From Cylindrobasidium torrendii FP15055 ss-10 (Eukaryota; Basidiomycota; Agaricomycetes; Agaricales; Physalacriaceae), in assembly GCA_000934385.1 (NCBI GenBank), contig KN880436.1, forward strand, positions 124,001 through 188,000: 64,000 bases of DNA, given 5' to 3'. Position numbers and translations under genes: made by a program. The notes beneath the pieces were generated by a model that ran no database searches, was not told the DNA's origin, and was given only the letters and a program-made list of their open reading frames with translations. Shown in pieces: positions 7,228 through 57,519 of the stretch (within the stretch, counting starts at the first letter, position 1; every line of letters begins with the position of its first letter).

Positions 7228-7933
7228 GCCAGGCGAGTGGTCTTCAAATTGGATACCTTCGCATTAATAGAATAGTATTTGTATCCTGTATGTTCTGGTT
7301 CAACATGTTTTTTTTTCTGTGATATTACTGAGCTGCACTCGATCGTTTAAGAATGTGTATTGTGCTTAGCAAAGGTTACCAACAACGGGGCGGGGGTCCG
7401 AGTCGGAGGCTCACTGTATCTCGATAATGGATGATGGCGTCCATCAAGATTCGTCAGCGAAGTAGGACCGGTGAGTAACCGGTTTATGTGGATTATACAT
7501 TGCATCTCATTCACCTGCCACAAACTCTCAGCAAGGCCTAGCGATGCCGAATGAACTGAGCACACCACGATATGGATAACATGAAGAGGCCGTCTGACTG
7601 TGCTCCAGTGCCGCAGTGGAAAATCCGGGTCAAGGTGGGTGCGGTCACCTGCAGCCTCAGATTTCGGAAAGGGGCAAGCTTTGGAAAAATGATCAAAATT
7701 CCAACAAAATGTCTGTAATATTTCCTGCGTCAACGCCGTTATCTTCGACGCCTTCCAGTCCCTTTGGACATTTCTCTTACGTGCATCTTCGTGCGGGGGC
7801 AAAATCCGTGGCTCAATCAGCCATATAATATTCCGCACCATCAATGACGCCAAGGCTGAGAGAGGCTCACTATATAAGACTCTCTCCAGAACTCAGCGGA
7901 AGTATCAGTTCTACATTCCTCATCTTCACTATC
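7228..7933. other. Intergenic region with TATA-type promoter of the reductase gene
   Basis: About 700 bp without a supportable gene. A 168-aa minus-strand open frame (7347-7853) has no family resemblance. The region ends with the promoter of the downstream reductase. Confidence 0.45.
7871..7877 (+). promoter_or_regulatory. TATA box of reductase gene
   Basis: TATATAA lies 57-63 bp upstream of the ATG at 7934, with pyrimidine-rich sequence (ctctctcc) just after it that could hold the transcription start. Position and sequence fit a fungal TATA promoter. Confidence 0.5.
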
Positions 7934-40918: not shown

Positions 40919-43854
40919 ATGGCAAGGGCAAAATGGATATTTGGCGCACCACAGGCATCTGCCGAAGACCCGAAGGCACTCCCCATTATCCCGCCCCCAT
41001 CCACTGCCGATGCCAAGAGGTTCGGACTGGAGAACGTGCGTTCAACTGCTCTGTTCTGTTCTTTTCGCTGACATTCTGGCCGCTTGCTAGTTTGGCAACA
41101 CTTGGTAAGTCATGAATTGTCGTTCCATCGCGGATAACATGCTAAACGGCCGCGTTAGCTATGCCAATTCGGTGATCCAAGCCCTCTACTTTTGCACGCC
41201 GTTTCGGGACCTTCTTATCCAGTCAGAAGACGATAGCCGGACGGAAAGCACCTCCAACGTACATCAATCTCGAGCAAGCACACCACCGCCAGTGGGACCA
41301 CCTCGCGCCAAGCCAGCGTCGGCTGGAAATGGACAACCGGACACCATTGCACCTCCATCCGGGGCGAGCGCTGTGCCAATACCAGAGTCTCCGCCAACGC
41401 TATTTGCAGCGCTCCGCTCCCTTTACTTGCACATCTCCAGCACACCAGCGGACAAAGGTACCGTCGCTCCGCGCGCTCTCATCGACAAAGTCCGGGAGGG
41501 CAACGAAATATTCCGGAGCCCAATGCACCAGGATGCGCACGAGTTTCTCAACTACATGCTGAACAAGATTGTTGAAGAGGAATCACAGCGGACACACCCA
41601 GATGCTAATGGAGATTGTACGTGTCTTTCATCCAATGATTATAGGGCCGGCGCACTCATTCGCGTGTGCAGTATCAAACTCCATTTCCACATTATCCTCC
41701 TCCGCTCCCCCGACTGTCACGACCTCAAGTTCGGGCGGGCACTCTCACGCACACGAGTCTTCTATTGTTCACAAACTCTTCGAGGGTGTGCTCACAAGCG
41801 AGACGCGTTGCTTGACCTGTGAAAGGGTACGTTTCTTTTCGCGGCATTGCCTGGAACGCGCAAGACTCAACTCCACAGGTTTCCGCGCGGGATGAAACCT
41901 TCCTCGATCTCTCAATTGACATTGAGCAAAATTCCAGTGTTACCGCCTGCCTGCGACAGTTCAGCGCAAGTGAAATGCTCTGCCACAAGAACAAGTTCTT
42001 CTGCGACTCGTGCTGTGACCTCCAGGAGGCCGAGAAACGGTCGGTCTTCAATCATTTTCTTCGGCATGTATTGTCTGATACACCCGTCCCAGTATGAAGA
42101 TTAAAAAGCTCCCCAATGTTCTTGCACTGCACCTCAAGCGGTTCAAATACCAGGATGAACTGAAGAAGTACATCAAGCTTGCTTATCGTGTTGCCTTTCC
42201 ATTCGAGCTGCGGCTTTTCAATACCGTTGATGACACGGACGACGCCGACAGACTATTCAACCTGTTCGCTATCGTTGTCCATATCGGAAAGTGAGTCCCT
42301 ACTTGACCATTCACGGCGTTTGCTGATGACCATCTGTCCTCAAGCGGCCCGCACCACGGGCACTACATCTCGATCATCAAGTCCGGTGCTGTGTGGCTGG
42401 TATTCGATGACGAGACAGTTTCCCCCATACCGGAGAGTGAGATTCCAAAGTATTTTGGAGACTCGAACTCTGGTTCGGCCTACGTGCTGTATTACCAGGC
42501 AGCAGACATAGACCGCGCCGGCCTTGGCATTCGCACCCCATCGCCTGTTCCGGAGCCTGTCGAAACACCAGCCGTCGTGTTGGAACAAAGCTCCTCGCCG
42601 ATACCCTCGCATACTCAAGCCCCTCCAGGACTCGAGGAAGAGAATTCATCAGACCTCAGCGACCCTCCTTTCCCCATTACACCTTCTCAATCCTCCTCTC
42701 CCCGTCTACAACCATCCGACAAATCTCTTATCCGTCAACCACTCGAGATCCAGGTGCACGGTGTCGATGCTATAGCGGGACCTTCGTCAGCTACGGGCTC
42801 TACACCTATTACAACAGCGCCCCGGAAAGGTGGTTTGTTTAAGCGGAGGCCTTCAACATCAGCGTCCACTAATGGCGCGGATGCACGGAAATCACTCGCA
42901 GAAAAGTCGGGGCTGCCGCCTCTACCCTTGCCAGCAATGGACCCCAGTCAGCCGTCAGCGCCTCTGACAAGTGGCCCCACGCCATTGGAACGTGAAGTGT
43001 CGCAACCTAAAGAAGCACGACACAAGGATCCAGAACGCAAGTCAAGTACATGGTTTAAGAAACGGACACCGCGTTCGAGGCCGGGCAGTGCGTACGGGAT
43101 GCCTGAGACGTTGGCACCATCGCCTATGTCACCCATGTCGAAAACAAGTTCTGCAGAGGATGACCATGCGGCATGGACCCAGAATACCGACCGGAGGCCG
43201 TCAGAGCCTACCGTTGGATCCAACTCAAAACTTGCCCCGCCGCCGAAGGTCAGGCCAAAGTCCTCAGGCGGCGGTCTTGCAGCAGCATCGACACCCGACA
43301 AAGGTCGGAGGACCGACTATGAAAGTACATCGGTGGCTTCCACGACCTCGTCCATTGCCTCGACATCGCAGGCCCCCTTGCACCTGTCTACCTCTCTTCC
43401 CTATGAGCATCCCGCTCATGTTTCTCCCACTCGTTCCTCCCTCGACCGGATACCGCACTCGCCAGAGCACAAGAAGTCGTTTACCAATTTGACATTTGGC
43501 AAGAAGTCCAAGGAACGCATACCTCCGCGGCCATCAACGTCTACAGGTGTTAGGCCTGGCTTGATGTCACCTCGTGAGCCCCCAGTTCCTGCGATACCCA
43601 AGGAGTATTTGACGCCGACGTCGCCAAATGGACACGCGAATGAACCAGACGGGCACCATTTAAGGCCATCGGATGTACCGGCCCTCGACTCGACGGCGAG
43701 CACGTCGAGCAGCAGCAATGCGAGTTCGAACTGGAAGCGGACTAGTCGAAAGCTGAGCCTGTCGATGGGATTCGGATTTGGGAAGAAGGACAAGGAGAAA
43801 GAGAAGAAGGACAAGGACAAGCCACCGACGTCGTATAACGGCTTCATTTACTGA
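40919..43854 (+). CDS. Ubiquitin C-terminal hydrolase, USP12/USP46 type (yeast Ubp9/Ubp13)
   Basis: Starting M-A-R-A-K-W-I-F-G, seven exons encode the USP core. The Cys box FGLENFGNTCYANS is split by two introns. The rest of the core is [22 protein letters not shown], a zinc-binding pair (ETRCLTCE and [11 protein letters not shown]), [15 protein letters not shown], and the His box [14 protein letters not shown] with [10 protein letters not shown] and [10 protein letters not shown] Ser/Pro-rich insert sits inside the fingers/palm region ([12 protein letters not shown]). The core is followed by a disordered ~400-aa tail rich in Pro, Ser and Lys, ending [23 protein letters not shown]12/46 enzymes work with WDR48/Uaf1-type WD40 activators (Bun107/Bun62 in fission yeast) in membrane trafficking. 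The tail is far longer than in animal USP46. Its 3' UTR is interrupted by the retrotransposon. Confidence 0.87.
41091..41104 (+). other. 14-nt microexon carrying the catalytic cysteine box of the deubiquitinase
   Basis: TTTGGCAACACTTG lies between an intron ending gcttgctag and one starting gtaagt, the latter ending cgcgttag before CTATGCC. Spliced, it reads F-G-N-T-C, and the catalytic Cys codon itself (TG|C) spans the second junction. No other reading restores the invariant Cys box. Confidence 0.85.
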
Positions 43855-43930
43855 CCGCCCCGGGGATGGTCGCGGACATGCTTTTACGGTTACTTATTCA
43901 TTTCGTCTTTCTTTTATTGTACCGCACGTT

Positions 43931-43944
43931 CTTCTTTATTTCTG
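43931..43944. repeat. Left copy of 14-bp target-site duplication
   Basis: CTTCTTTATTTCTG lies directly against the T8 tract that is the poly(A) end of the minus-strand retrotransposon. The identical 14-mer occurs at 55030-55043. Confidence 0.88.
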
Positions 43945-43952
43945 TTTTTTTT
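43945..43952 (-). other. Poly(A) tail of the retrotransposon (A8)
   Basis: Eight T on the plus strand, read as A8 on the element's strand, 86 nt after the ORF2 stop and immediately next to the target-site duplication. Confidence 0.8.
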
Positions 43953-44038
43953 GGATGAGCGTTAACTTGAGGCCCCGTTCGCGATGTAACCGTGTTCGGA
44001 GCCACGCTATAGTAAAACCTGGTCTGTCGGTCAAAATG

Positions 44039-47000
44039 CTAGTTACGCACATTGTGGGACGACTCGGCTGTGAAAGCGTCGCTAAGGATGTACTCCAGTC
44101 GCGACCTACAACCCATACTCCCTAAAACCCCGACAGTCAGCTCTTCAAGAGCACGCTCTCCAGGAATTACCGCGTTGTCATAGAAGACCCTCCAAGTGTA
44201 CAAGACCTCCCCGATGTTCAGGGCCCGTCGCTTGAAACGACGCTCGTTCGTCCGAAAGCTTTCCGTTCGTGATTCCTGGTCCAGAGCGTCGATCAGCCTT
44301 TTAACGGCCGTGGCTTTGCTGAAAGAGAAATCCGGGATGTGTGCGTGTTCAATTCGGCGTTCACATCTGAGTTTCCAAATGAGGAAAGCCGTTTCCGACA
44401 CTATCTTCTTCAACAGGCGATTCCTCCCTTTCTTCTCTTCGCGATTGCCCCTTCCTCTGGGTCTGAAGAGCCCACACCCCATTACCAGGCCAAGATTCAT
44501 GTTTGGCCATCTGTCCCCCGTGATTGACCATAGCCGTTCCGCTGCCTCCCAGAGGGCTTCCCTCTCCGGGGCCACACACTCAAAGAGAACATGGTCGATC
44601 GTTTCTATCTTCCCGCACAAGACGCAGTCGCCTCTTGCCATGTTTGAACTCATGCGCGCAAAGAAGGGCCCGCATGCGTGAGCGTTATGGATTGTCCTCC
44701 ATCTGAATTGTTGGGTTCTCTTAGAGGTGTCCCGGTCCCTTGTCGATTTCCATACTTGAGTGGTCGATGGTTTCACATCAAATTCTTGCATAATCGCATT
44801 CCTCGTGACTCGCAGATTCTTCGTGGTGTCTTTCCTCGGGCCCGCCTGATGGAGTCTCCTAAGCGCTTTGTACGCTGATTTCTGTGTCATATTCTTAAGG
44901 CTCATTCCCCTCACATACGCTTCTTCCTTTGGGAGGCTCGCCGCGTCTGCAGCCATTGGGGCCGGGTGATTACGCACGGTCATAGTGCTTGACAGTATTG
45001 CCAGCTCCTCCGCGCCTTTGGTCCCGGGGCTCCGTTTGTCTGTGTCGAGGACCAATTTGACGTCTCCCGTTCTCGACCTCATGCGAGCGATCATTTCTTC
45101 CACTGTTTTCTTCTCGTAAATGCTCAAATCTGGCCAGCCCGCATCTTCGAGGGCGACTAGATTTTTTGTAAGTGACTTAACCACTAGCTTGTCCGTACAG
45201 TGGAACGTTACGCTTATGTTCTCCGGGACTAGTTTCATGGCTTCATGGAGGATCCACGCGAGAGCACCCATCGGATTCAGAAAGTCTTTAGGTGGTTTAA
45301 TGGAGGTGTTTCTTTCATCTGTTGTGCCGAACCAGACTGCTCCTCCGGGGTCATTTCTGTTGGATTTGTACCAGCATACGAAGGCATGAATCTGAGGGGC
45401 CTCGTGATGCGCTTCGGGGGGTACAAATTGGTTTTCGGACCTATTAACTCGGCCTCCTCCAAGGATTCGATAGCAGTCTTGCACCATTCTGGCCGGGGCA
45501 CGGCCTTTTCTAAATTCAACGACCCTCCCTTGGGGGCTCCTCGGTGGTGCTATGGCTGGGGCGGGGGTCCTTGGGTCCCACTTTCGTTCCAGCCCATTTA
45601 GAAGTGCCGTTGCCTGTTCGCGGCAGCCGTTGAAATCAGCGCATTCGCCCGTCTCTCTGTTTATAATATTTACTAGGTCGCCTACCGTGGTAACTCCATG
45701 GGTCGAGCGTAGGCACTTGCTCGCCCCCACGTTAGTGATCCTTACGTATCTTTTGGAATCCCACCCATGGTGGAGGAAGGCCGGCATTGATAGTTTGAGC
45801 TCTGTCGATATGCTCAGAGCATCCAGCACCAGACCATATTTACTTGCTACCTTGAGCATGCGTTGTAAATCTTGCGGTAGCTTTGTGGGGGAGGTTTCCC
45901 ACGTTTGTATTATGGGGTCGATGAGGACTGCTTCCGGTATGTCCTTATAGGCGGTCTTCCGCACTTTCCTCATAAGGGAACGGGCCACTTTCGCCCATTT
46001 AGGTTGCGGGCCATCCACGCCCAAAAACGATTTCAACATCATGAGAGCTATCGCATCCGTTCTCTTTGTAAAATCCACCCAGTTTTGGCCTCCTTCGTTC
46101 AAAGGTAGTTTCAGCGTATCCATATTTATTTTCGACTTCTTCCCTTGCCAGAAGAATTTCCTGAACACACTTTCTAGGGTTTTTTCGATCGCAGGCGGTA
46201 TGCCGTCCGCTGCTATCTGGTATTGCGTCCTCGACACTCCGTATGTCTGCGCTCCCATTCTGATGCCCTGTATCGGTGGGTTGAGCTTAGATATCGAGTC
46301 CAGTACCAGCGAAGTTTTCCTAATGATTTCGGTCCAGACCAGTTTGTGATCTACCCCGTTCCCGATTTGCGCCCCGAGCGCTCTAGTCGAGGATTTGTCT
46401 TTGATAATTGTCGCCGTTATCGGGACAGTCGGTCCGTTCTCTCCCAGAGACCGGGAGGTCACTACTTGTTGCCTATGGGTTACGCTCCCAATCGGGATAA
46501 TTACGGTCTTTTCTATGTTGAACTTGGCGCCCGACGCCATACACCAGGTCGACAGAATGCTTTCTAAGGTGGCCCAGTCATCCTCCCTCGCTAGATACAC
46601 CGTAGTGTCATCTGCAAAGAGGGTGACTATGATTCTTTCCATGATTTCAGGGATATTATAGCCGGTTAAGCTGGATTCGCGAAGGAGGTCGGCCAAGGGT
46701 TCTATTGCCAGATTGAAGAGGAGGCAGGAGAGCGGGTCCCCTTGGCGTACTCCCCTCGTTACCCTAAACCGAGAGCTTACACAGCCGTTGAGTATTACAC
46801 ATGTATGGGCATTCTCATATAGGGTTTTAATCGACGCTATGAATTTTGGGGGCAAGCCGTTCTTCTCCAGCACCGCCCATAGGTAGTCATGTCTTATTTT
46901 GTCGTAAGCTTTCTCTTGGTCAAGGAGGACAATGGACCCATCTGTGTCCGTTGCTTCAGCGTGATAGATGATGTGTTTTGCCAGTTTGATCTGGTCTGTT

Positions 47001-49084
47001 ATACTTCGGCCTTTAACAAAGCCCGCTTGGTCCGGGTTTATAAGGTTCGGGGCAATTTCCGCTATCTTGACCGCGATGCTCTTTGTGTAGAACTTATAGT
47101 CCGAGTTAAGCAGTGTTATAGGTCTGTAGTTCTTCATCTCAGTTTTGTCTCCCTTCTTGTACAGCGGACACAGCCAGCCTTCCGCAAAGTTAGAGTTATC
47201 TATGATACCGTAGTTTTCGATGTCGTTATAGAGAAGAGTCAACATAGCCGACACATCCCAGTCCGAGACAAGGCCCTTTCCAGGCGTCATTGGGCTTCCC
47301 CCTTCTGCTGCTTTGGCAAACAAGGTGTATCGTTTGAGGAAGACTTTATAGAAGTCGTTCTGTAGACCATCCAGACCCGCGCCAACAAACGGTTTCGAGT
47401 TCATTATCGCTTCACTAACATCATCGCTGTCACAGTCCGAGCACTTTTCCCATATCTGGGCTTTCGATAGGGAGTGTGAGATTGCTCCTAGTACTGATTT
47501 CGTTGCCGCGTCCCTCAGGTTTGGTTCGATATCCAGGTCTAGGTTCTGCAGCGCGGAGTGATAGTCCCGGGTCATTTCTGAGTTTTTCTGCGAGTCTCTT
47601 TCAAAGACGGCTGGGTTCGTATTGGGCACCTTGAGACTCATGATGGGGTCCCTAGGTTTGCCCCCCTTTATGACCTTTGTCCACTCTTTTGTGTTCTCGT
47701 CATATAGTGTTTCACGAGTTGCAGCGGTACGAGTTCTTTTGTGGCGCCAGACGTCTTCGCCTAGCCGTGAGATCTTATCTTCCAGGAGCGCTACCTCTGC
47801 TGCTTTCTGGGCTTCACTTTTGCGTGGGTTTTTCGTTGTCTGCGAAATTTTATTCTGCAGCTTTGCTATTTTCTTCTTTACGTTTGGTATCTTTTTCTTG
47901 GCCTGTACGCGCAAGTATTTCACCAGTGATTCTTTCCAGTCTTGGTATATCTTTTGAGGGTTCATGGTTTCGTTACGGCTAGGCACTTCCGAGAACTCCA
48001 GCATCGACATGTAGGCCGCCTTCGCTGTACGGGTTACTTCTTGGGAGACTTCGGGGATGTCAAGGATATATGAGGGGATCGTGTATCTCCCGTGTCCTTG
48101 CTCCGGGACCGAGTCTAATGTGAGCATGCAGGACACTAGGCGGTGATCTGTCTGGATCCCACTTGTCGAAGGGGTCTCTATATTCCAGCCACGCGTCTGG
48201 AGCAGTCGCTGTTTAGTGACATAGATTCTGTCAATTCGTGAACTACTCCTGTTCTCGCCCCCTTTCTGCGTGAATGTATACGCCATTTTGGTATCATTTT
48301 CATTCCTCCACCCATCTATGAGGCCAGCGCTTAATAGGAAGGCAGACATCTCTTCGGCGGCTCTCAAGTTGTCATTCCGCTCTGGGATCCTATCGATCGC
48401 GCTTAGAGTCACGTTGGCGTCCGTGCATAGCACATCCGGCGTCCAGCGACTATTTTCCAGGGTAAAGTCCTTCAAGCTCTTCCAGAAAAGAGCATTTTCG
48501 GTATGGGTATTGGGTGCGTATGCAACCATTATGTTTAGGTTGTCTTTTCCGTGCCAATTTGTTCGTATTACCATACATCTGCCAGGAATGACTTCCCTTT
48601 TTTCCAGTTTCGATGTGAGTGTTGTTTTCTTGTTAAAGGCCAGTGCTATGCCTTCCGCCTGTGTTTCCCTTGAGGGAGGGGCACTCCATTCAAGATGAAC
48701 GGTATCCCCTAGAAAGTTATCTATCTCGTCAACACGCTCTTGGTTCAGGTGTGTCTCTTGAAGGGCAACAACGTTGAACTTCTCCCCAAACATTAGCCCG
48801 GGGAGGCTTAACAATTTGACTCTCGACTCAGATTTGTATCCGTTCACGTTTAGTGAACCAATTTTCAAATGCGCTTTGGTCTTCAATTCCTTTGGGTGTG
48901 CGCTCGGATTACGCGGCGGGGGGTTCGAGTTCGTTGTATTGCCGCTCTGCCCACTAGGCACTCCGTGAGTTGCAACAGGTGTATCGGAAGTGGGGCGCCC
49001 AGATTCCTCTTCCCTCACGGAGCTGGGACCAGCATTGGAGGTCACCGCATGCCCAGCTGTAATACTTGTCAAACTACTAGGCAT
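44039..49084 (-). CDS. LINE ORF2: endonuclease, reverse transcriptase, RNase H-like, zinc finger (1681 aa)
   Basis: One uninterrupted frame. A Ser/Thr/Pro leader precedes an APE-type endonuclease from about residue 73 (IGSLNVNGYKS, VVALQETHLN, SRIDRIYVTK, QTDHRLV) with its acidic and His residues present. The reverse transcriptase covers about 640-890 (MKNYRPITLLNSDYKF, PDQAGFVKGRSITDQI, DQEKAYDKIRHDYLW, VRQGDPLSCLLFNLA, and the catalytic FADD at residues 823-826). An RNase H-like domain begins near 1232 but departs from consensus at most catalytic positions. A Cys/His motif typical of LINE C-termini follows near 1488 (CVLCGKIETIDHVLFEC). The protein nicks the target and primes reverse transcription there. 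The frame is open throughout, so the element may be active. Confidence 0.93.
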   Translation of the reverse strand: MPSSLTSITAGHAVTSNAGPSSVREEESGRPTSDTPVATHGVPSGQSGNTTNSNPPPRNPSAHPKELKTKAHLKIGSLNVNGYKSESRVKLLSLPGLMFGEKFNVVALQETHLNQERVDEIDNFLGDTVHLEWSAPPSRETQAEGIALAFNKKTTLTSKLEKREVIPGRCMVIRTNWHGKDNLNIMVAYAPNTHTENALFWKSLKDFTLENSRWTPDVLCTDANVTLSAIDRIPERNDNLRAAEEMSAFLLSAGLIDGWRNENDTKMAYTFTQKGGENRSSSRIDRIYVTKQRLLQTRGWNIETPSTSGIQTDHRLVSCMLTLDSVPEQGHGRYTIPSYILDIPEVSQEVTRTAKAAYMSMLEFSEVPSRNETMNPQKIYQDWKESLVKYLRVQAKKKIPNVKKKIAKLQNKISQTTKNPRKSEAQKAAEVALLEDKISRLGEDVWRHKRTRTAATRETLYDENTKEWTKVIKGGKPRDPIMSLKVPNTNPAVFERDSQKNSEMTRDYHSALQNLDLDIEPNLRDAATKSVLGAISHSLSKAQIWEKCSDCDSDDVSEAIMNSKPFVGAGLDGLQNDFYKVFLKRYTLFAKAAEGGSPMTPGKGLVSDWDVSAMLTLLYNDIENYGIIDNSNFAEGWLCPLYKKGDKTEMKNYRPITLLNSDYKFYTKSIAVKIAEIAPNLINPDQAGFVKGRSITDQIKLAKHIIYHAEATDTDGSIVLLDQEKAYDKIRHDYLWAVLEKNGLPPKFIASIKTLYENAHTCVILNGCVSSRFRVTRGVRQGDPLSCLLFNLAIEPLADLLRESSLTGYNIPEIMERIIVTLFADDTTVYLAREDDWATLESILSTWCMASGAKFNIEKTVIIPIGSVTHRQQVVTSRSLGENGPTVPITATIIKDKSSTRALGAQIGNGVDHKLVWTEIIRKTSLVLDSISKLNPPIQGIRMGAQTYGVSRTQYQIAADGIPPAIEKTLESVFRKFFWQGKKSKINMDTLKLPLNEGGQNWVDFTKRTDAIALMMLKSFLGVDGPQPKWAKVARSLMRKVRKTAYKDIPEAVLIDPIIQTWETSPTKLPQDLQRMLKVASKYGLVLDALSISTELKLSMPAFLHHGWDSKRYVRITNVGASKCLRSTHGVTTVGDLVNIINRETGECADFNGCREQATALLNGLERKWDPRTPAPAIAPPRSPQGRVVEFRKGRAPARMVQDCYRILGGGRVNRSENQFVPPEAHHEAPQIHAFVCWYKSNRNDPGGAVWFGTTDERNTSIKPPKDFLNPMGALAWILHEAMKLVPENISVTFHCTDKLVVKSLTKNLVALEDAGWPDLSIYEKKTVEEMIARMRSRTGDVKLVLDTDKRSPGTKGAEELAILSSTMTVRNHPAPMAADAASLPKEEAYVRGMSLKNMTQKSAYKALRRLHQAGPRKDTTKNLRVTRNAIMQEFDVKPSTTQVWKSTRDRDTSKRTQQFRWRTIHNAHACGPFFARMSSNMARGDCVLCGKIETIDHVLFECVAPEREALWEAAERLWSITGDRWPNMNLGLVMGCGLFRPRGRGNREEKKGRNRLLKKIVSETAFLIWKLRCERRIEHAHIPDFSFSKATAVKRLIDALDQESRTESFRTNERRFKRRALNIGEVLYTWRVFYDNAVIPGERALEELTVGVLGSMGCRSRLEYILSDAFTAESSHNVRN

Positions 49085-49104
49085 GAATAAGGTTTTTGGC
49101 TACC

Positions 49105-49578
49105 TCAAGCCTTTGTCCCTTGACCAACCACGTCGCCACTCCGGAAACCATTCTCACCCTGTTGGCGGGTGGCTCCAGAAGCTAGCAACGTCCTGCGCTC
49201 CTCCCACTCGCTCCAAACTCTCAGATTCTCCGCACACTCCGATTCCTTCTCGATCTTCTTTACCCATTTCCGCCTCCGCGCCATTTGGGTCCTCCTTGAG
49301 GGGTTTTCGTCGTTCCAGGCTTTCGCGGATCGTTTGTGTTTCCGCGGGATGCGGTTTGTGTTAACGAGCCGGAAGTTGGCCAGCCCTGCGCTTTCCTTGG
49401 GACTAATCTCCTCCCGTCCTACTACCTCATCCTGGTCCACCATAGACGGGGACCCGGACGTGTCCTGCATTTCTTGCGGTTTTGTTGTAGTAGGGGCCGG
49501 GCGTAGGTATGCTGGGGGTACTACCAGGGCTCCTAGCGTCCATTTTGTCTGCGGCTTTTTGCTTTTCAACTTTGTCAT
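49105..49578 (-). CDS. Short basic ORF immediately upstream of LINE ORF2
   Basis: 157 aa from ATG 49578 (M-T-K-L-K-S-K-K-P-Q-T-K-W); an in-frame ATG at 49611 would add 11 residues. It contains a strongly basic, helical middle (RIPRKHKRSAKAWND, ARRRKWVKKIEKESE) and no zinc knuckle. Its stop at 49105-49107 is 20 nt before the ORF2 ATG, so ORF2 could be translated by reinitiation. It may be a nucleic-acid-binding accessory protein of the element. I recognise no family. Confidence 0.5.
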   Translation of the reverse strand: MTKLKSKKPQTKWTLGALVVPPAYLRPAPTTTKPQEMQDTSGSPSMVDQDEVVGREEISPKESAGLANFRLVNTNRIPRKHKRSAKAWNDENPSRRTQMARRRKWVKKIEKESECAENLRVWSEWEERRTLLASGATRQQGENGFRSGDVVGQGTKA

Positions 49579-49839
49579 GATGGGGGCAAGCAGGCGGCAG
49601 AGATGACTCATTCCATATCGAGTCTATGAGTTTTGGACTTTCTCACCATTTGCGAAGAAACCCAAGGAGTTAATTAACGGAGTAACGACTGGACATTGCC
49701 TTTCTACATAGGCTAGGGTTTCAGGGGTACGGAGATCTAGGATGGACGAGAATGTAATAGGATAGGTAGCTTGTAGCAACAACTGCACTCAGTGTTACGG
49801 GAGGGAAATGATAACGTCTAAATCTAACCAACGAGATAA

Positions 49840-52107
49840 TTACAACTTGCGAGGACGGTTGGTGTCTCCTCCCATCGGGGCAAGGGCCGGCCGTTTGTTA
49901 CGTCCCTTGCCTTCAGCTGGACCCGAAACACTGCTCTGGGCCGGTAGACGAAACTGAGACTGCTGGTTTTGCTGCTGGGGTTTGACTACGAAGCCTTCCA
50001 CTTCTCCAAGCCAGCACATCCCGAGAACGTGATCCGTGCCCAGGCATGCCTTGCAGGTGTGGATGTCGATAGACGAAGTCGGGTTCCCGCCAGTACCGGC
50101 CATGCGATGGGAACTGGGGAAGGCGAAGCGGCGGCCTTTGAAGAAAGAGAGCCACTCGACGGTATGAGCGATGAGCTTGGTGGGCGGCGTGCAGTATACG
50201 GCGGACGACAGGCGGTCCGGCTGGCCAGTCGTCAGGCTCTTGTTCAGGTGGACTGTGGTGATGCTGATAGATGCAAGGATAAATTCGACTCTGTTCTCCT
50301 TGGCGACATTCTCCGGGATCGCATCATGGTGGTCATGGATGAACTTCCGGAAGGCGTCGTCTTTCTGGAGGGTCGCAATGATGAGGAGACGAAGAATGGC
50401 ATTCCCCTCATCATTGAAGGTGGTGGCAATGTTGGTGAGTTGGCACACATGGTACGGCATGTAGCCAAGGACCTTGCTAAACGCCCAGGATGTCTTCATC
50501 GACCCTTTGAAGAGAACGCAGGCGTTGTGGATGACTTCGTACTCGTCTTCCGTGAGGCCAGTGATGATGAAGAGCGTAGCGTACGGCTTGGGACCAGGAC
50601 CACCTCCGTGATTGAGTGCGACGAGGGACACGCGTGGCCCGAAATTCATACTCTCGTCCGGCGAGCCGGCCTTCGCAAGGTCATACTGCAGGTCGCTAGC
50701 TGGGATGGCGAACTGCTCCACCAGAACCCTGCTCAGCAGCGTCCGGGCCGAGCCTTCACTCGCTGGCGCATACTGCGAGCTAATCGCATGCGCCACCACC
50801 ATGTAGGGGTCTTCGCGGCCGACCGTATCCACGATGATCCCCGTATCGACTCCTCGTGTCCAGAAGTCGAAGGGGTAGTGAACGCGGGGAAATCCAAGCT
50901 TTGGAGTTACGATGAGGTCTGGGTCCGTCGGTAGCTGAGAGAGTAGGGGCCTAGCGGACTCTGCCATGTCCCCCAACGAAGCGTAGTTCGGGTCGTTCTT
51001 CTGGGGGGAATTGGGGGACGCAAACGCATCCAGGAGATCCTCGAAAACCGAAAGCGTAGACGCTTTGCTTCGCTGGTTCGTCTTGGGGAAACGGCCAGCC
51101 GCCTTGATGGCTGCATCTCTGCCAGGATAGGCAACGAGGGCTGGAGCAGGAAGCCCCTGCGATTCCGGCTTCGACTGCTTTCTGACCTGCAGGTCGTTGA
51201 AGCTGTCGATGTCACTCGGGGTATCTGGCACAACGAAGTCGTCTTCAAAGAGCTGAAGAAGGATAAGTACAAGTTGATTTCTGGTAGTGGAAGGGAAACG
51301 TGCCTGGAACGGATTTGTCTTTTCCACGGCCATCTGACCTTCCTGCTCATTGCTGGGCATCGCAGTCGCCTCATCTTCCGGGACTTGGGAAGAATCTTGA
51401 GGGGAGTCGTTGTCGTCAGCCTCAGAGAGGCTCTGGAGGTGGAGTTAGATAGACTGTTTGGCAGGGAAGTGAGGGGCCCTTACCTGCGTGTCCGACTCGT
51501 TATCCGAATCATCCTCATCAGCTGCCCCAGTAGCAGCTAAGGCCTGCCCCTCAGGGCACTGAGCGTTCAACGGCAGCGCCGTCTCTTCAGTTTGCGGCTT
51601 CTCCTTGACCTGACCGGACTCGTCGATGGGTAGGGCCGCATCGACTTCATTCAGGTCGTTCGAGGCGGCTTCCTCGCGTACACTTTGCTGGGTTACGCCC
51701 AGGAGAGTGTTCTTCGCCTGTCTCGGCTTGGGACGCGGCGTCGGGATGGAGACGTGCGCCTGGGGACGCGCCTCGCTGGCGAGGGCGGCGACGGGGCTTG
51801 CGTCAGCAGCGGCGACCGTCGACTGTTGCGCTGGGATCGGGGAACCGTCGACACCGGACGAGGTGGCTAGCACCAGGGCCGATTTCTTGACTGCGCGGGG
51901 TTTCTTGCTCTTGGACTTAGTCTTAAGCGGGGCTTGCACCGATGTCGTTGGGGGGGCGGCGGTCACAGTCCTATTCTCCACAGCAGCGGCCTGCGTAGGA
52001 GTAGCTGGTTGGATGTTTGGCCTTTGGGGAGCGGAGATAGACTGCATCGGGGTTGTTTTTGCCGAGCGAGTCGACGAGCGGGTAGAACGAGGAGCGGCAG
52101 AAGACAT
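49840..52107 (-). CDS. Gag-like ORF1 protein of the LINE, CCHC zinc knuckle, one apparent intron
   Basis: Exon 1 (52107-51484) and exon 2 (51432-49840) join across a 51-nt intron (gtaagg..cctccag) to give about 738 aa. Acidic sequence runs smoothly through the junction (DNESDTQ then SLSEADDNDSPQ), which supports splicing over two separate ORFs. The first 200 residues are Ala/Pro/Ser/Thr-rich and basic (KTKSKSKKPRAVKKS). The middle is a folded-looking domain (LIVTPKLGFPRVHYPFDFWT). Near residues 668-681 stands a C-x2-C-x4-H-x4-C knuckle (CKACLGTDHVLGMC). The C-terminus is basic. This is what a LINE ORF1 RNA-binding protein should look like. An independent host gene is excluded by the flanking target duplication if that is accepted. 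Confidence 0.65.
51433..51483 (-). other. Apparent 51-nt spliceosomal intron inside the LINE gag-like ORF
   Basis: On the minus strand it starts gtaagggcccc and ends ccacctccag. Unspliced, the frame stops after V-R-A-P-H-F-P-A-K-Q-S-I. Spliced, both open frames fuse in phase. Confidence 0.6.
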
Positions 52108-52193
52108 GGTCTGAAGGTGAGACTGTTGGGTCTCAGTTATCCTAAGTTGTCCTTTAAATACTCACCATTTCTCTACTGGGGACGTGTTCTCTG

Positions 52194-52442
52194 TTACTCC
52201 ATTTCGGTGTGGCCGAGGGTCGGCGATGAGATGGGCTTCCTGCATGTGTCGGCGCTTGGTATCCGCCTCGACTCAACTGGTAGGCAGGGGCCGCGATTTA
52301 GACAGCGTGTCTCGTTCTTGGCCAGATGGATTTCGGGGATATGTGCTGCGATGCTCGCCCATTCCCCGTCGGCGTTCGGGGAGTGCAGTGACCGAGGTCG
52401 GTCATGGTGGCTCGAGGAGAAAATTGACCGATCGTTCCTCAT
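52194..52442 (-). CDS. Small ORF of 82 aa within the LINE
   Basis: Starts with an ATG directly after the TGA of the preceding small frame (TGA at 52445-52443, ATG at 52442-52440) and ends TAA before the gag-like ORF. Sequence begins M-R-N-D-R-S-I-F-S-S-S-H-H-D-R and is Pro/Ser/Arg-rich. No family recognised. It could be chance, but it is in sense orientation and packed head-to-tail with its neighbours. Confidence 0.25.
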   Translation of the reverse strand: MRNDRSIFSSSHHDRPRSLHSPNADGEWASIAAHIPEIHLAKNETRCLNRGPCLPVESRRIPSADTCRKPISSPTLGHTEME

Positions 52443-52944
52443 TCAGCGATCATGCGTGACTGTCGCATTTTGATGTGCCTCGTCCGCGTCTGTATCGTCT
52501 TTTGCTATCTTGGCTCCTCTGCGACTCGCGTTACCATTCGGGCTTTGCAGTTTATCTAAATGGGCTTTGTTTCCTTGGTATCCCAGGAGATGTGTTACTT
52601 TATCCTCTGTCAGGGACCTGGCCTTTCGCTCTTCAAGATGTTTCGATGCGCCAGATTCTCGGTGCTCTCGTTTCGCGTTATACACTTCTGTTTGCTGACG
52701 AAGGCCTTATAACTATTTGCCCGTGGTCTAGAGTGTTGTAGGGTATCATTCGACGCTTAGATCCGTTCATCGTCGTTGTCACTGGCCTCTCACGCTGCCG
52801 CTACAATAGTCCAGTCCGATGTACTTTCCATTGGTAAGCCATTGCCTCCGCTTTCTCCATGCCTAGTATTATTTCTTCTAAGATGCATCTTACAAATGTA
52901 GCATATTCTCTTTTTGCTTTGCGTTTTTTAGATTGTCGCTCCAT
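52443..52944 (-). CDS. Small highly charged ORF within the LINE, possibly spliced
   Basis: ATG 52944 opens M-E-R-Q-S-K-K-R-K-A-K-R-E-Y, with a basic nuclear-signal-like patch, then a helical stretch (CILEEIILGMEKAEAMAYQWK). That frame stops at 52801 (47 aa). A possible 130-nt intron (gtacat..gtcag, 52824-52695) would join it in phase to an 83-residue charged frame (QTEVYNAKREHRESG, SKHLEERKARSLTEDK), giving about 123 aa. The intron is longer than its neighbours', so confidence is low. No family recognised. Confidence 0.28.
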
Positions 52945-53186
52945 GGGGAACTCAATGCATTGTAGCTTGCGAACATGTCACTTCTTCGACCTCCTCTACG
53001 GGGTGCTTCTCTTGCTATATTTTCTCGATGGGTGCGACGTAGATTTTTACGGTGGTCGTGGGGATTCCGACGCGCCATTCGTGGTTGGGTCGAGTCGGTG
53101 GACAGTGGATTGTGGTGGGGACTTTGTATAGTCCGCCGCCCTTCCAGTTCTTCTCTTTCATTGTCAGTTATATTACATTTCCTTCT

Positions 53187-54200
53187 TCAAGTACGGTCCG
53201 TAATTACAGTTACGCCTGCCTCTCCTAGTCTTTTCGTAAGCCTTGTTGGTACTGGCTTCCCTGTCTTCAGTGTCACCCTTTGCAGCATCCCGTTCTTTAC
53301 TGCTCGCCCATGCAGAGCTGCCATCGCTGTTTCGTTCGGTGACCATCCTCCGATTCTGATCCAAAGGTGCTCCAGGTTTTCCCATAGCATCTCTTCCTCG
53401 TTCGGAGCTATGGCCGCCATCAAGCCTTTTGCTGTGACTGCTTTCTCGGCTTTGTTCGAGCTCGCGTGTACTCCCAGGCTTGTGATGTAGGGGAAGATTT
53501 CCCAGAGGGTCTCCATGTCCCCCCGGCTGGTCAGGACGCAACGTCGCAGTTCGAGGGATCTGACCGAGGGGAAGCTACGCTTATCCTGAGCGTCGCCTAT
53601 GCCGTCTAGCACTCCCCAAATAAGCCTGTCTATCGCCACATCTCGGAGCTTCGGGGCAACTATTGTCGTGAGCAACGCGGTGTATTCAAACTCCTGTAGC
53701 GTCGACAGTCGAAGCTCCTCTAAGTTGGGGAGGTGGAAGGATGTGAAGCCTTGGTTTCCGCGCGGGGGAATGAAAGGAGAACCCGACCCCAGTGCTAGAG
53801 AGACTAGGAGTGGGACGTGCACCTTTGTGGAGTATCCCGGCCATAGGTAGTAGTGCATGTTGCGCGTGCATGGGCTGAACGAGATCCACTTCCATTTGTC
53901 GCAGGCCGCCAGGACCCTCCGTAGGAGTGACGAGCTCCAGACTGTGTTGCCTGTAACCTGAACAAGGAGGAGTAGTGGTTGCTTCGCGGCGTTGTGGATA
54001 AAAGTTGATACCACTGCGGGCGTGGTTGTGTCTTGGATTAGGATATTAGACCAGAGGGTAGGTGACGAGATGAGGTCCAGTCTCCACTTTGTGCACACCT
54101 GCGACATGGCCACCAATGTCGCACCAGTTTCGGCTGTAAGATCCCATGTTTGGGTGTGCTGCGCCACAGACCTGATGATGTCGGTGGCTAGGAGGGACAT
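53187..54200 (-). CDS. F-box/LRR-like protein carried inside the LINE
   Basis: A single exon of 337 aa from ATG 54200 (M-S-L-L-A-T-D-I-I-R-S-V-A) to TGA 53187-53189. The N-terminus has the Agaricomycete F-box-like pattern (LVAMSQVCTKWRLDLISSP followed by TLWSNI). The rest contains LRR-like strands (LEELRLSTLQE, VRSLELRRC, ITSLGVHAS, LEHLWIRIGG). It resembles host F-box families such as the gene at 24482-25981 in plan. It lies in sense with the retrotransposon ORFs and inside its target-site duplication, so it appears to be captured host sequence or a standard ORF of this LINE lineage. The frame is fully intact. A TATATAA stands 29 nt upstream. Confidence 0.72.
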   Translation of the reverse strand: MSLLATDIIRSVAQHTQTWDLTAETGATLVAMSQVCTKWRLDLISSPTLWSNILIQDTTTPAVVSTFIHNAAKQPLLLLVQVTGNTVWSSSLLRRVLAACDKWKWISFSPCTRNMHYYLWPGYSTKVHVPLLVSLALGSGSPFIPPRGNQGFTSFHLPNLEELRLSTLQEFEYTALLTTIVAPKLRDVAIDRLIWGVLDGIGDAQDKRSFPSVRSLELRRCVLTSRGDMETLWEIFPYITSLGVHASSNKAEKAVTAKGLMAAIAPNEEEMLWENLEHLWIRIGGWSPNETAMAALHGRAVKNGMLQRVTLKTGKPVPTRLTKRLGEAGVTVITDRT

Positions 54201-55029
54201 TTTGGTGCGCTCAACTCATGTGCACTCGTTATATACTGAGTGGCCATGTTTCTGTTACGTATACCTTCAGGTCTCAGCGGGTATAAAGGAGTAGCGTGGT
54301 TCTGAGAGGATCCTATTCAACCTTGTTGTACGGAGGTTTCCACGTTTTCGCCCTCTATACAGCGCAGTACGTAGAGGGTTCTACTATCTCCGATGATGGT
54401 AAATTGACTGTAACGTAGCGGCTGGCCGTTATATGGCCTGCGGCATACTGCCGTACCAGAGGAGTAGTGGGCTAGCAGGCTTTTGTCCCAGTCCTAGCAT
54501 CTCGCCAAAGGTAGTAGGGGTCTGGGAGGGGCAGTCGCGCCATTTGTTGGGAGCATCCAAGTGCTTGTTTTATACCACAGTCGTTACTCGAACCCTCACT
54601 CGCTTTACCTAATTGCCGGGGTTATTGATCCGCCGTTCCTCGGCCAATTCTCATGGGGCTACGTTTTACCACGTCATTGGTGACGTGTCAATCCTTACAC
54701 GGGTGTCTTGACCGTCCTCGTCGCCGCCTCACTCATGAGCGACTTAGAGCACACCCTGCTACGAATATAGTCTGGGGGCGGGGGATGGGAAGGGAATTTT
54801 GTTTGGTGGACACCTTAGAGGTATCTTCGGAACCGACCACTCGTCCTAATGGCCCAGAGATAATTTCCTGGATGTTACGCCTTTCTTCATTTTAGTTCGA
54901 GTTCCTCCCAAATCGGTGGGGAGTTGAGAAGATTCTCGGGGGAGGGGGCGCTATGGCTGGTGGCCTCTCGTTCAAGACCTTGTCCTTTTCCGCACGACAT
55001 GATCGTGGTAAAAGGTCAAGGGGCCCCCC
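54201..55029 (-). promoter_or_regulatory. 5' untranslated/promoter region of the LINE
   Basis: 829 nt from the element's G-run 5' end to the first ORF. It holds no long frame. Two TATA-like sites read on the element strand are TATAAA (54573-54568) and TATATAA (54235-54229). The second is 29 nt before the F-box ATG, so the cargo may have its own promoter. A short perfect palindrome, CGGCA-tac-TGCCG, is present near 54440-54455. Confidence 0.45.
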
Positions 55030-55043
55030 CTTCTTTATTTCTG
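55030..55043. repeat. Right copy of 14-bp target-site duplication
   Basis: CTTCTTTATTTCTG, identical to 43931-43944, directly beyond the G-run that forms the 5' end of the minus-strand element. Confidence 0.88.
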
Positions 55044-55378
55044 CACTGACAACCCCGTTGATATGTAGGATGTACTAGACGCCACCCGTCCACTCGTTTG
55101 GTTGGCCGAGAAGGTAGCATGGTGGGGACCTGGACGTCGAGATCTACTTATGTATTTGCTTTGCTCTTCACGGTTCTCGTAATACTTAACTCTACACACT
55201 GCTGCAACTGTATAACGTAATTACCCTACCAAACGCAGAATGTCCTTCCCACCATGAGTAGTAGATGGCTATTGTGCGTCGATCACTGTGGCTTAGTCAG
55301 TAGCCTCGTCTTGCAGAGGGACAACCATGACAATAACAAGGCATCCCGGACCGAGGACAATAAAGCTTTCCCCACGCT
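55044..55378. other. Original flank of the insertion site, upstream of an F-box gene
   Basis: 335 bp. Before the insertion this sequence continued directly from the 3' region of the deubiquitinase gene. It should now contain the promoter of the F-box gene at 55379. No gene seen. Confidence 0.45.
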
Positions 55379-57519
55379 ATGTGCGCTTCTTCACTTGCTT
55401 CACTTGTTACTTCCATGGCCGACTTGAGAAATCTTCCTGCCCATCTGTCCAATACTTTCCATGCCCAGGCTGGTGCCTATCTCGAGCGCGTCCCTGTTGA
55501 TGTGCTAGTTGACCGCATTCTGGTGCATTTGTCGGTGACAGAACTGCTTCGTTTGCGGCGGGTACGTACACCCTCCCATCGCCAGCAGCTTCCGTTAGGC
55601 TTACTGTACTTGCGAGCAGGTTAACAAAGCCTTTTGTATTCTCACCCATTGTGCGACGCTCTGGAAGCAGCTGTTCATGGATGCCCAAGTGCCCGTGCCG
55701 TTTGTGGCTGAGTACCCCGACAGGTTCGCATTCCACCCCAGCGACTTTGAGTACGAGCGTCTCGTAGCGAAATGTGTTTCCCTCGAGGACAACTGGACGA
55801 GTAAATTCCCCCACGCAAAGGGGATGAGTACACTCTTTATGGGGTGTACGGTCTTTGAGGCGAAGCTGATGCCGGGCGGGAAGTATTTGGTTGCGTCTGT
55901 CAAGGAGGTTTGTGGCGACGGCGGAGGACCGTATTTCGGAGTCCATGTTTATGCACTTCTGGGCCATGGTACGCAGATAACGGCAAAGCTGATCATGGCG
56001 TTGAACACAGTCGGGAGGGTGCACGAGCTGCAGGCGCGCTTCGTGAAGAGACGCAGGGTGACGTGGCTGGCTATAGCATTTGTGAGAAGGGAGTACCAAA
56101 CGACAGGGTTGTGCGTATTATGGTTTTCATCGTGTATTTTCGTGTCTCTAATGGATGTGTAGATATGACCTGAACACTGTTGACTATGATTGGGAGTCCG
56201 ACGACCACAAAGTGAACTACATATTCGAGGCCGGATGCCTGACCATGGAGGAGATTGAAAAGGCGACACAGTCCGGAATAGAATATCAAGACTGGCATCC
56301 TCTGGTCATGAGCAAACATACACGACGAGTCCAATGCATCCAGTTTTGCACGCTGAGCGGTATTGGTTTAGTCGTGTACGTATTGCAGCCTGCGATGTTC
56401 GTCTTTTCTTTCCTTCAATCAGGCAAGACTACGGTCATACCCCTTGTTACGGAAGCAAGAGAGTTGATAGAATTCCAGGTCAGACGAAATCTCGATATGT
56501 GCGACTTTGCTAATGCTGTACAGAACCGCATCGAAGCTATCCATCTTCTCCCTGTTCAAAACAGAGTTATCGTCTTGCGTACGTTTACGAATGTAGTGGC
56601 TGCAGGATGGGATAGCACCGTGCACCGGATGGAGAGCCACGACTTGATTGTACGCAATGAAGGCGGCAGGCCCCGGCGTCCGGCACAAGCGATGAATCTC
56701 CATGTGGCTGAACCTCACATTTCCTTTTCCCAGTTCTGGTTCTCGGACCCGCCGTTGCTTGAGGAGTACTTTGACTCTCCTGGTGCTCTTCCAACGGCGC
56801 CGCCTCCAATTTCTGTGTATGGTGTCTCCACCGATACAAGAGCTTTCGTGCACTGGACAATCCATCCAGTGTCTGGCATGCACCGGCCAGACAATTCACG
56901 TCGAGAAGGATTGCGCGTGGATCCGTCAAATCGTTCGTTGCTTGGGATGTATGCTACGGTTGATCCTCCGCGCTACTCTATTTCTCAGCCGGACATGGTT
57001 ACTTCCCAGCCACGATACGAGTATACGGAGACACAAGGCAGACTTGGAGTATTGCCAGGCGTCCGTAGGCCGCTTGTTTATTTTCTATCTGGCCAGAAGA
57101 ACGTTGTGTGCGACCTTCGACGGTACCAGCCACATTGGATGCTTGATTATGGAGCGCCGGACTTGGAGAGCTGGGACAGGCGGGTTGGACGTGTTGCCAC
57201 AAACAGGGTGAACAGAGCGAAGCTTGAGGATGCGTGGATGAAGCACCCTCCGCCGCTGGTTGAGCGCAAACGGGACGAGACATGGAGCCCGGTTTACGCC
57301 TTCACGTCAGTGTCTCTTATTCCACGGACAGTGTATGAAAGATGGAAGGGGCAGGATGCCTGCGTAATGACGTGGGACGAAACGAGTGGCAGACTCTGTG
57401 TAGTGTCCTCGCCGGACATGAACGCGATATTTATTGACATGGGCATCGAGATTGAGAGGAACCGGAGCCTAGAAAACTGGAAGCTTGGAGATGAACCTAG
57501 TATGGATGTAGATATGTAG
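55379..57519 (+). CDS. F-box protein of about 630 aa
   Basis: Four exons from ATG 55379 (M-C-A-S-S-L-A-S-L-V-T-S-M) to TAG 57517-57519. The F-box is YLERVPVDVLVDRILVHLSV followed, across a gtacgt..gcag intron, by N-K-A-L-C-I-L-T-H and TLWKQLFMD. The C-terminal 500 residues look like beta-rich segments of a WD/beta-propeller or similar fold (FGVHVYALLG, RVIVLRTFTNVVAAGWDST, GRLCVVSSPDMNAIFIDMG) but without a diagnosable repeat. Proteins of this plan are multi-copy in Agaricomycetes. A role in an SCF ubiquitin ligase is presumed from the F-box; the substrate is unknown. An internal ATG at 55415 is a possible alternative start. Confidence 0.72.

Follow-up and report, generated by a model that had tools for sequence, protein, structure and literature searches.

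Accessory open reading frames (ORFs) are known in a number of retroelements. The sections of PMC5408684 drawn on here describe an esterase in CR1, L2 and RTEX LINEs, as well as GDSL and DEDDy types of ORF3 in LTR elements of bdelloid rotifers. Host genes may also be mobilized, as in Adineta vaga, where a host gene was relocated in trans by Penelope elements (PMC3846280, in the sections drawn on), and host F-box genes fused with transposon domains have been reported (PMC12062965, likewise in part). A LINE with an F-box ORF was found nowhere in the full-text literature searched (titles and abstract openings, with thin coverage of subscription journals), in agreement with an earlier note on this DNA, whose author knew of no described fungal LINE of this type.

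In this study, we have analysed a stretch of 64,000 nt (the window; C6:124001-188000) of the assembly of Cylindrobasidium torrendii FP15055 ss-10, an agaric in the family Physalacriaceae; the assembly comprises 29.3 Mb in 494 contigs. Our preferred explanation of the locus, held with moderate confidence, is that a full-length 11.1-kb LINE bearing an accessory F-box/LRR-type first ORF in its 5' leader was inserted, ORF and element together, as one RNA-derived unit.

Limits and coding content of the LINE unit

The LINE unit extends from 43945 to 55029 (11,085 bp) as a minus-strand element and encloses the F-box ORF. Its features, in window coordinates, are as follows:

43931-43944, no strand: target-site duplication, 3' copy, exact 14 bp, CTTCTTTATTTCTG
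43945-43952, minus: A8 tail at the LINE 3' end, appearing as T8 on the plus strand and directly abutted by the 3' copy of the duplication
44039-49084, minus: ORF2, 1681 aa, with an RVT_1 reverse transcriptase; its endonuclease and zf-RVT matches are weak and stay under their cut-offs
49105-49611, minus: ORF between ORF1 and ORF2, 168 aa, no Pfam match at E 1
49840-51444, minus: ORF1, 3' part, 506 aa counted from the first ATG; a zinc knuckle of the form CX2CX4HX4C, CKACLGTDHVLGMC, was identified by eye
51433-51483, minus: intron-like stretch in ORF1, 51 nt, GTAAG...CTAAC...CAG, containing an in-frame stop
51445-52107, minus: ORF1, 5' part, 220 aa, in the same frame as the 3' part
52108-53186, minus: spacer separating ORF1 from the F-box ORF, 1,079 nt, TG/CA low for host DNA, discriminant undecided
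53187-54200, minus: F-box/LRR-like ORF, 337 aa, ATG start, no internal stop, in sense with ORF1 and ORF2
54201-55029, minus: 5' leader of the LINE, 829 nt, of a composition unlike host DNA
55030-55043, no strand: target-site duplication, 5' copy, exact 14 bp, CTTCTTTATTTCTG

The hallmarks of a LINE insertion are present at the 3' end, where the A8 tail is joined to the 14-bp duplication, and in ORF2, whose reverse transcriptase match is strong (RVT_1, E 3.3e-33, 115.6 bits against a cut-off of 29.6). The Exo_endo_phos match of ORF2, of the APE-type endonuclease, falls under its cut-off of 24.5 (E 0.0044, 17.2 bits); PF03372 is present in many of the 120 ORF2 relatives listed. The 168-aa ORF is a candidate separate gene or part of the ORF2 leader. 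When ORF1 was searched in the protein database, one protein was returned, CYLTODRAFT_417062, 97% identical, which also omits the 51-nt intron-like stretch and is apparently the annotated product of ORF1 at this same locus. The ORF1 of a related LINE of this genome, located on C3, is likewise broken in one frame, by 54 nt (GTAAG...CTGAC...CAG), and both interruptions resemble spliceosomal introns with a length that is a multiple of three. If such an intron were truly kept in the LINE, the template would be unspliced RNA; a chance stop or read-through are the alternatives.

The duplication that delimits the unit is rare in this DNA. Exact copies lying 8-12 kb to the right were found for 14-mers at 4 of 52,000 starts in the window, the target duplication being one and three others making up the rest, and none of 382 random segment pairs reached a 14-nt match, with six reaching 13 nt. 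Comparison of 43820-44045 with 51000-57000 gave, beyond the duplication itself, no exact repeat longer than 9 nt. The window contains only two T-runs of at least 7 nt, at 7308 and 43945, and among the four 12-mers bordering them, only the one belonging to the target duplication recurs 3-15 kb away.

On the left, a plus-strand gene ends at 43854, 76 nt before the duplication, and encodes a ubiquitin carboxyl-terminal hydrolase (UCH, E 8.5e-06); this gene and the LINE are arranged tail to tail. On the right, beyond the 5' copy of the duplication, a host gene occupies 55415-57519 on the plus strand (start by eye) and has an F-box-like beginning (Pfam E 0.13). Without the LINE unit the two flanking genes would stand about 460 bp apart, given the by-eye start of the right one.

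The presence of a host F-box-like gene next to the insertion makes an F-box gene at this place less surprising, and it favours an alternative in which the LINE, starting between 52107 and 53187, adjoins a host gene, the F-box ORF, and the 14-bp repeat arose by coincidence. Against this stand the exactness of the 14-nt repeat, its abutment on the A-tail and the lack of any other repeat of 10 nt or more in the compared flanks; the F-box ORF, furthermore, shows no significant similarity to the neighbouring F-box-like gene (best E 4.6). We regard a host gene beside the LINE as distinctly unlikely, also on the grounds of base composition and codon usage given below.

The F-box/LRR-like ORF and its composition

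The earlier note had described an intact, uninterrupted 337-aa ORF in sense with the LINE ORFs and inside the target duplication, and this description is borne out in full (minus strand, 14-bp duplication, A8). It had also called the gene intronless, which is true of the open frame and is not diagnostic, as 111 of the 141 F-box-like matches listed in this genome also lie in open frames of at least 337 aa; the lack of introns was consequently dropped as a mark of a retrocopy.

As for the nature of the protein, the F-box corresponds approximately to residues 4-55 (start by eye, with profile matches spanning 28-55 and 28-80). The F-box-like identity proposed earlier stands by comparison with host proteins, the ORF scoring 36.7 bits with a host F-box profile against 5.3 for the best of 200 shuffled versions, but not by the Pfam threshold, since the F-box-like model gives E 0.014 and 15.6 bits, under the curated cut-off of 24.3. 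The host profile was built from 25 frames of at least 300 aa, out of 31 loci, with F-box status checked by length. Alignment of the ORF to this profile with hhalign gave a probability of 96% over residues 28-80, and a phmmer search of 903 frames, taken from chosen loci and deliberately rich in F-box loci, returned seven non-self matches under E 0.01, all seven in F-box frames. Judged by its resemblance to host F-box proteins, the 337-aa product is F-box-like, and LRR-like strands can be read by eye in its C-terminal part. A single-sequence structure model was too poor (mean pLDDT 33.5) to bear on the Skp1-binding fold, whose absence the earlier note had named as a further ground for rejection. 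The protein database search returned only the ORF itself among 7,998 candidates scored, and no relative appeared in the viral contigs scanned.

Dinucleotide composition was compared by the TG/CA value with 457 host windows, which overlap one another and include one locus (L048) containing about 0.5 kb of a partial LINE. The 829-nt leader has a value of 0.92, which only one of the 457 host windows reaches; it is also below all 33 windows of the C3 LINE (0/33 reach it), so the leader is to be described as unlike host DNA rather than as like the C3 LINE. The spacer has a value of 1.00 (reached by 14/457 host windows), and the F-box ORF, at 1.13, is ordinary for host DNA (161/457). CpG gave no separation of LINE from host. 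A discriminant trained on the C3 LINE versus host DNA, which misassigns 12% of host windows and assigns 89% of the LINE body in the window correctly, gave LINE scores of 1.0 for the leader, 0.94 for the F-box ORF and an undecided 0.57-0.61 for the spacer. It is a rough tool, since the flanking host DNA scores up to 0.74 as well (0.72-0.74 at 43000-43930, and 0.70 or 0.32 at 55044-55943).

In codon usage, with three LINE references in each comparison, none of 25 host F-box frames and none of 18 host frames is as LINE-like as the F-box ORF. The latter are the longest non-overlapping frames of at least 200 aa in the window, chosen by length with gene status unchecked, and at least one of them (55409-56117, minus) is probably antisense. 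By the same measure ORF1 is host-like, and untranslated frames of the spacer come out close to the F-box ORF. The result therefore points to an absence of host bias more than to LINE character, and what can safely be said is that the codon bias seen in the host frames compared is missing from the F-box ORF. A host gene that merely adjoins the LINE is disfavoured both by the non-host composition of the 5' side and by a codon usage that departs from that of the host frames compared.

Taken together, the duplication with its abutting A-tail, the F-box profile match, the non-host composition of the 5' side and the non-host codon usage support the proposal of the earlier note that the F-box ORF is part of the LINE unit, and co-mobilization of the two is likely, as judged from these features.

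Copy number and origin of the F-box ORF

No second copy of this LINE, and hence no dispersed family, was found in the 29.3-Mb assembly, copy counts from the genome search being lower bounds. The ORF2 relatives in the genome are the C3 LINE (34% identical, nearly full length) and a match on C236 (45% over 423 aa); partial LINE relatives lie at C56:121706-124627, with two in-frame stops, and at C236:33844-36425. The C3 LINE, delimited in the same way as a check on the method, is a unit of 10,520 bp, and its ends are of the same type, with a 16-nt duplication running into a T-run (copies at 258941 and 269477). This shared end structure, together with the exact 14-bp duplication on A8, speaks for joint insertion. 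The points against an ORF carried by the element are its single copy, the lack of a homologue among the protein-database candidates scored and the C3 LINE, in which no convincing F-box was found: the best of 90 frames reached 7.6 bits with the F-box profile, on the antisense strand, and ORFs of at least 60 aa in the 5' part, read by eye, revealed none. By-eye comparison of the 18 other RVT_1 places listed with the F-box matches gave no F-box match within 12 kb on one contig, both lists being lower bounds and the F-box lists omitting the ORF of this very LINE, so that a divergent F-box would escape.

The C3 LINE bears on two further points. Its leader measures about 2 kb by eye, the start of ORF1 being uncertain there, which is close to the length of the leader plus spacer of the LINE in the window once the F-box ORF is subtracted (about 1.9 kb). 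This likeness in length would agree with a later insertion of the F-box gene into a LINE already in place. Such an event should be considered very improbable, as direct repeats on the two sides of the ORF within the LINE do not exceed 10 nt, a length that random pairs also give, and the longest A or T run there is 6. The absence of a convincing F-box from the C3 LINE also agrees with the F-box ORF being a host gene next to the element, as does the clustering of F-box matches at several places in the genome (e.g., C108, C137, C166 and C233, among the matches listed).

Genes of this type are numerous, with at least 141 F-box-like matches in the genome (150 of 418 candidates scored). A read-through transcript from one of them would therefore look much like the arrangement observed, most of the matches being open over the length in question. 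This brings in a one-off 5' transduction, in which transcription initiated at a host F-box gene lying just 5' of the source LINE gave a joint RNA that was inserted, with the F-box gene as a passenger useless to the element. Passenger status of the F-box gene is a serious rival to our explanation, and it is consistent with the single copy of both element and ORF and with a C3 relative devoid of F-box; on balance we consider the transduction somewhat unlikely. For such a transduction, an idea raised in the earlier note, no donor gene was found in this assembly, which may be incomplete: the F-box ORF is single-copy, and the next best match is 34% identical over 72 aa. The leader, reached in TG/CA by one host window in 457, and a codon usage unlike that of all 43 host frames compared argue in the same direction. 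A donor that was lost, unassembled or strain-specific would lift these objections, and the source LINE is missing as well.

No host F-box protein exceeds 34% over 72 aa, so no recent donor is seen, although one would be expected had 5' transduction within this genome taken place recently; an older capture fits better. The codon usage of the ORF, outside that of 43/43 host frames, and the non-host character of the DNA on its 5' side likewise speak for an ORF that has travelled with the element for a while, rather than for a fresh pick-up. The earlier note had named, as grounds for rejecting its proposal, a single-copy ORF syntenic with a host gene in species lacking the LINE; the ORF is indeed single-copy, but the LINE itself is equally so at that similarity.

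A possible role, and comparison with known systems

The F-box of such proteins docks on Skp1, while the C-terminal part picks the substrate for ubiquitination. In the preferred explanation, that of a joint RNA-derived insertion, the F-box gene, of a type numerous in this genome, probably derives from a fungal gene that was captured long before the insertion seen here, and LINE and F-box gene would then have landed jointly between the ubiquitin-hydrolase gene and the host F-box-like gene. From what is known of the family, the N-terminal F-box is predicted to dock on Skp1 and the LRR-like remainder to bind a target that would then be ubiquitinated; the product, if made, may help the LINE. A more specific idea, namely that a LINE lineage encodes its own SCF substrate receptor, kept by selection, and uses it to clear or alter some host factor restricting retrotransposition, appears unlikely at present, and the suggestion that the ORF directs silencing or repair proteins to degradation is speculation.

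If more copies were to share the F-box ORF, they would connect a LINE directly with the protein-degradation machinery of the host, and would open a route for the spreading of F-box genes, so numerous in this genome. This is a single-copy case, and its worth hinges on further copies in other strains or species.

Basidiomycete LINEs related by ORF2 (closest protein-database relative 51% identical over residues 500-1000, the part searched), among whose names is "Transposon TX1 uncharacterized protein", share the reverse transcriptase family and a similar length, the comparison being one of proteins only. The Penelope elements of Adineta vaga, as described in the sections of PMC3846280 drawn on, resemble the present locus in that a host-type gene lies inside a target duplication made by a retroelement, and in being often single-copy. 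They differ in belonging to another class of retroelement and in that the host gene is flanked by terminal repeats, has retained its introns and was mobilized in trans. In the fusions covered by the cited part of PMC12062965, the F-box family also meets a transposable element; there, however, host F-box genes have captured a transposase domain, whereas here the F-box gene is an ORF of its own within the element. The accessory-ORF retroelements in the cited sections of PMC5408684 likewise have an extra ORF of cellular type beside the replication genes, but theirs encode esterases, exonucleases or env-like proteins and occur in several families, while the LINE described here carries an F-box protein and is found in one copy.
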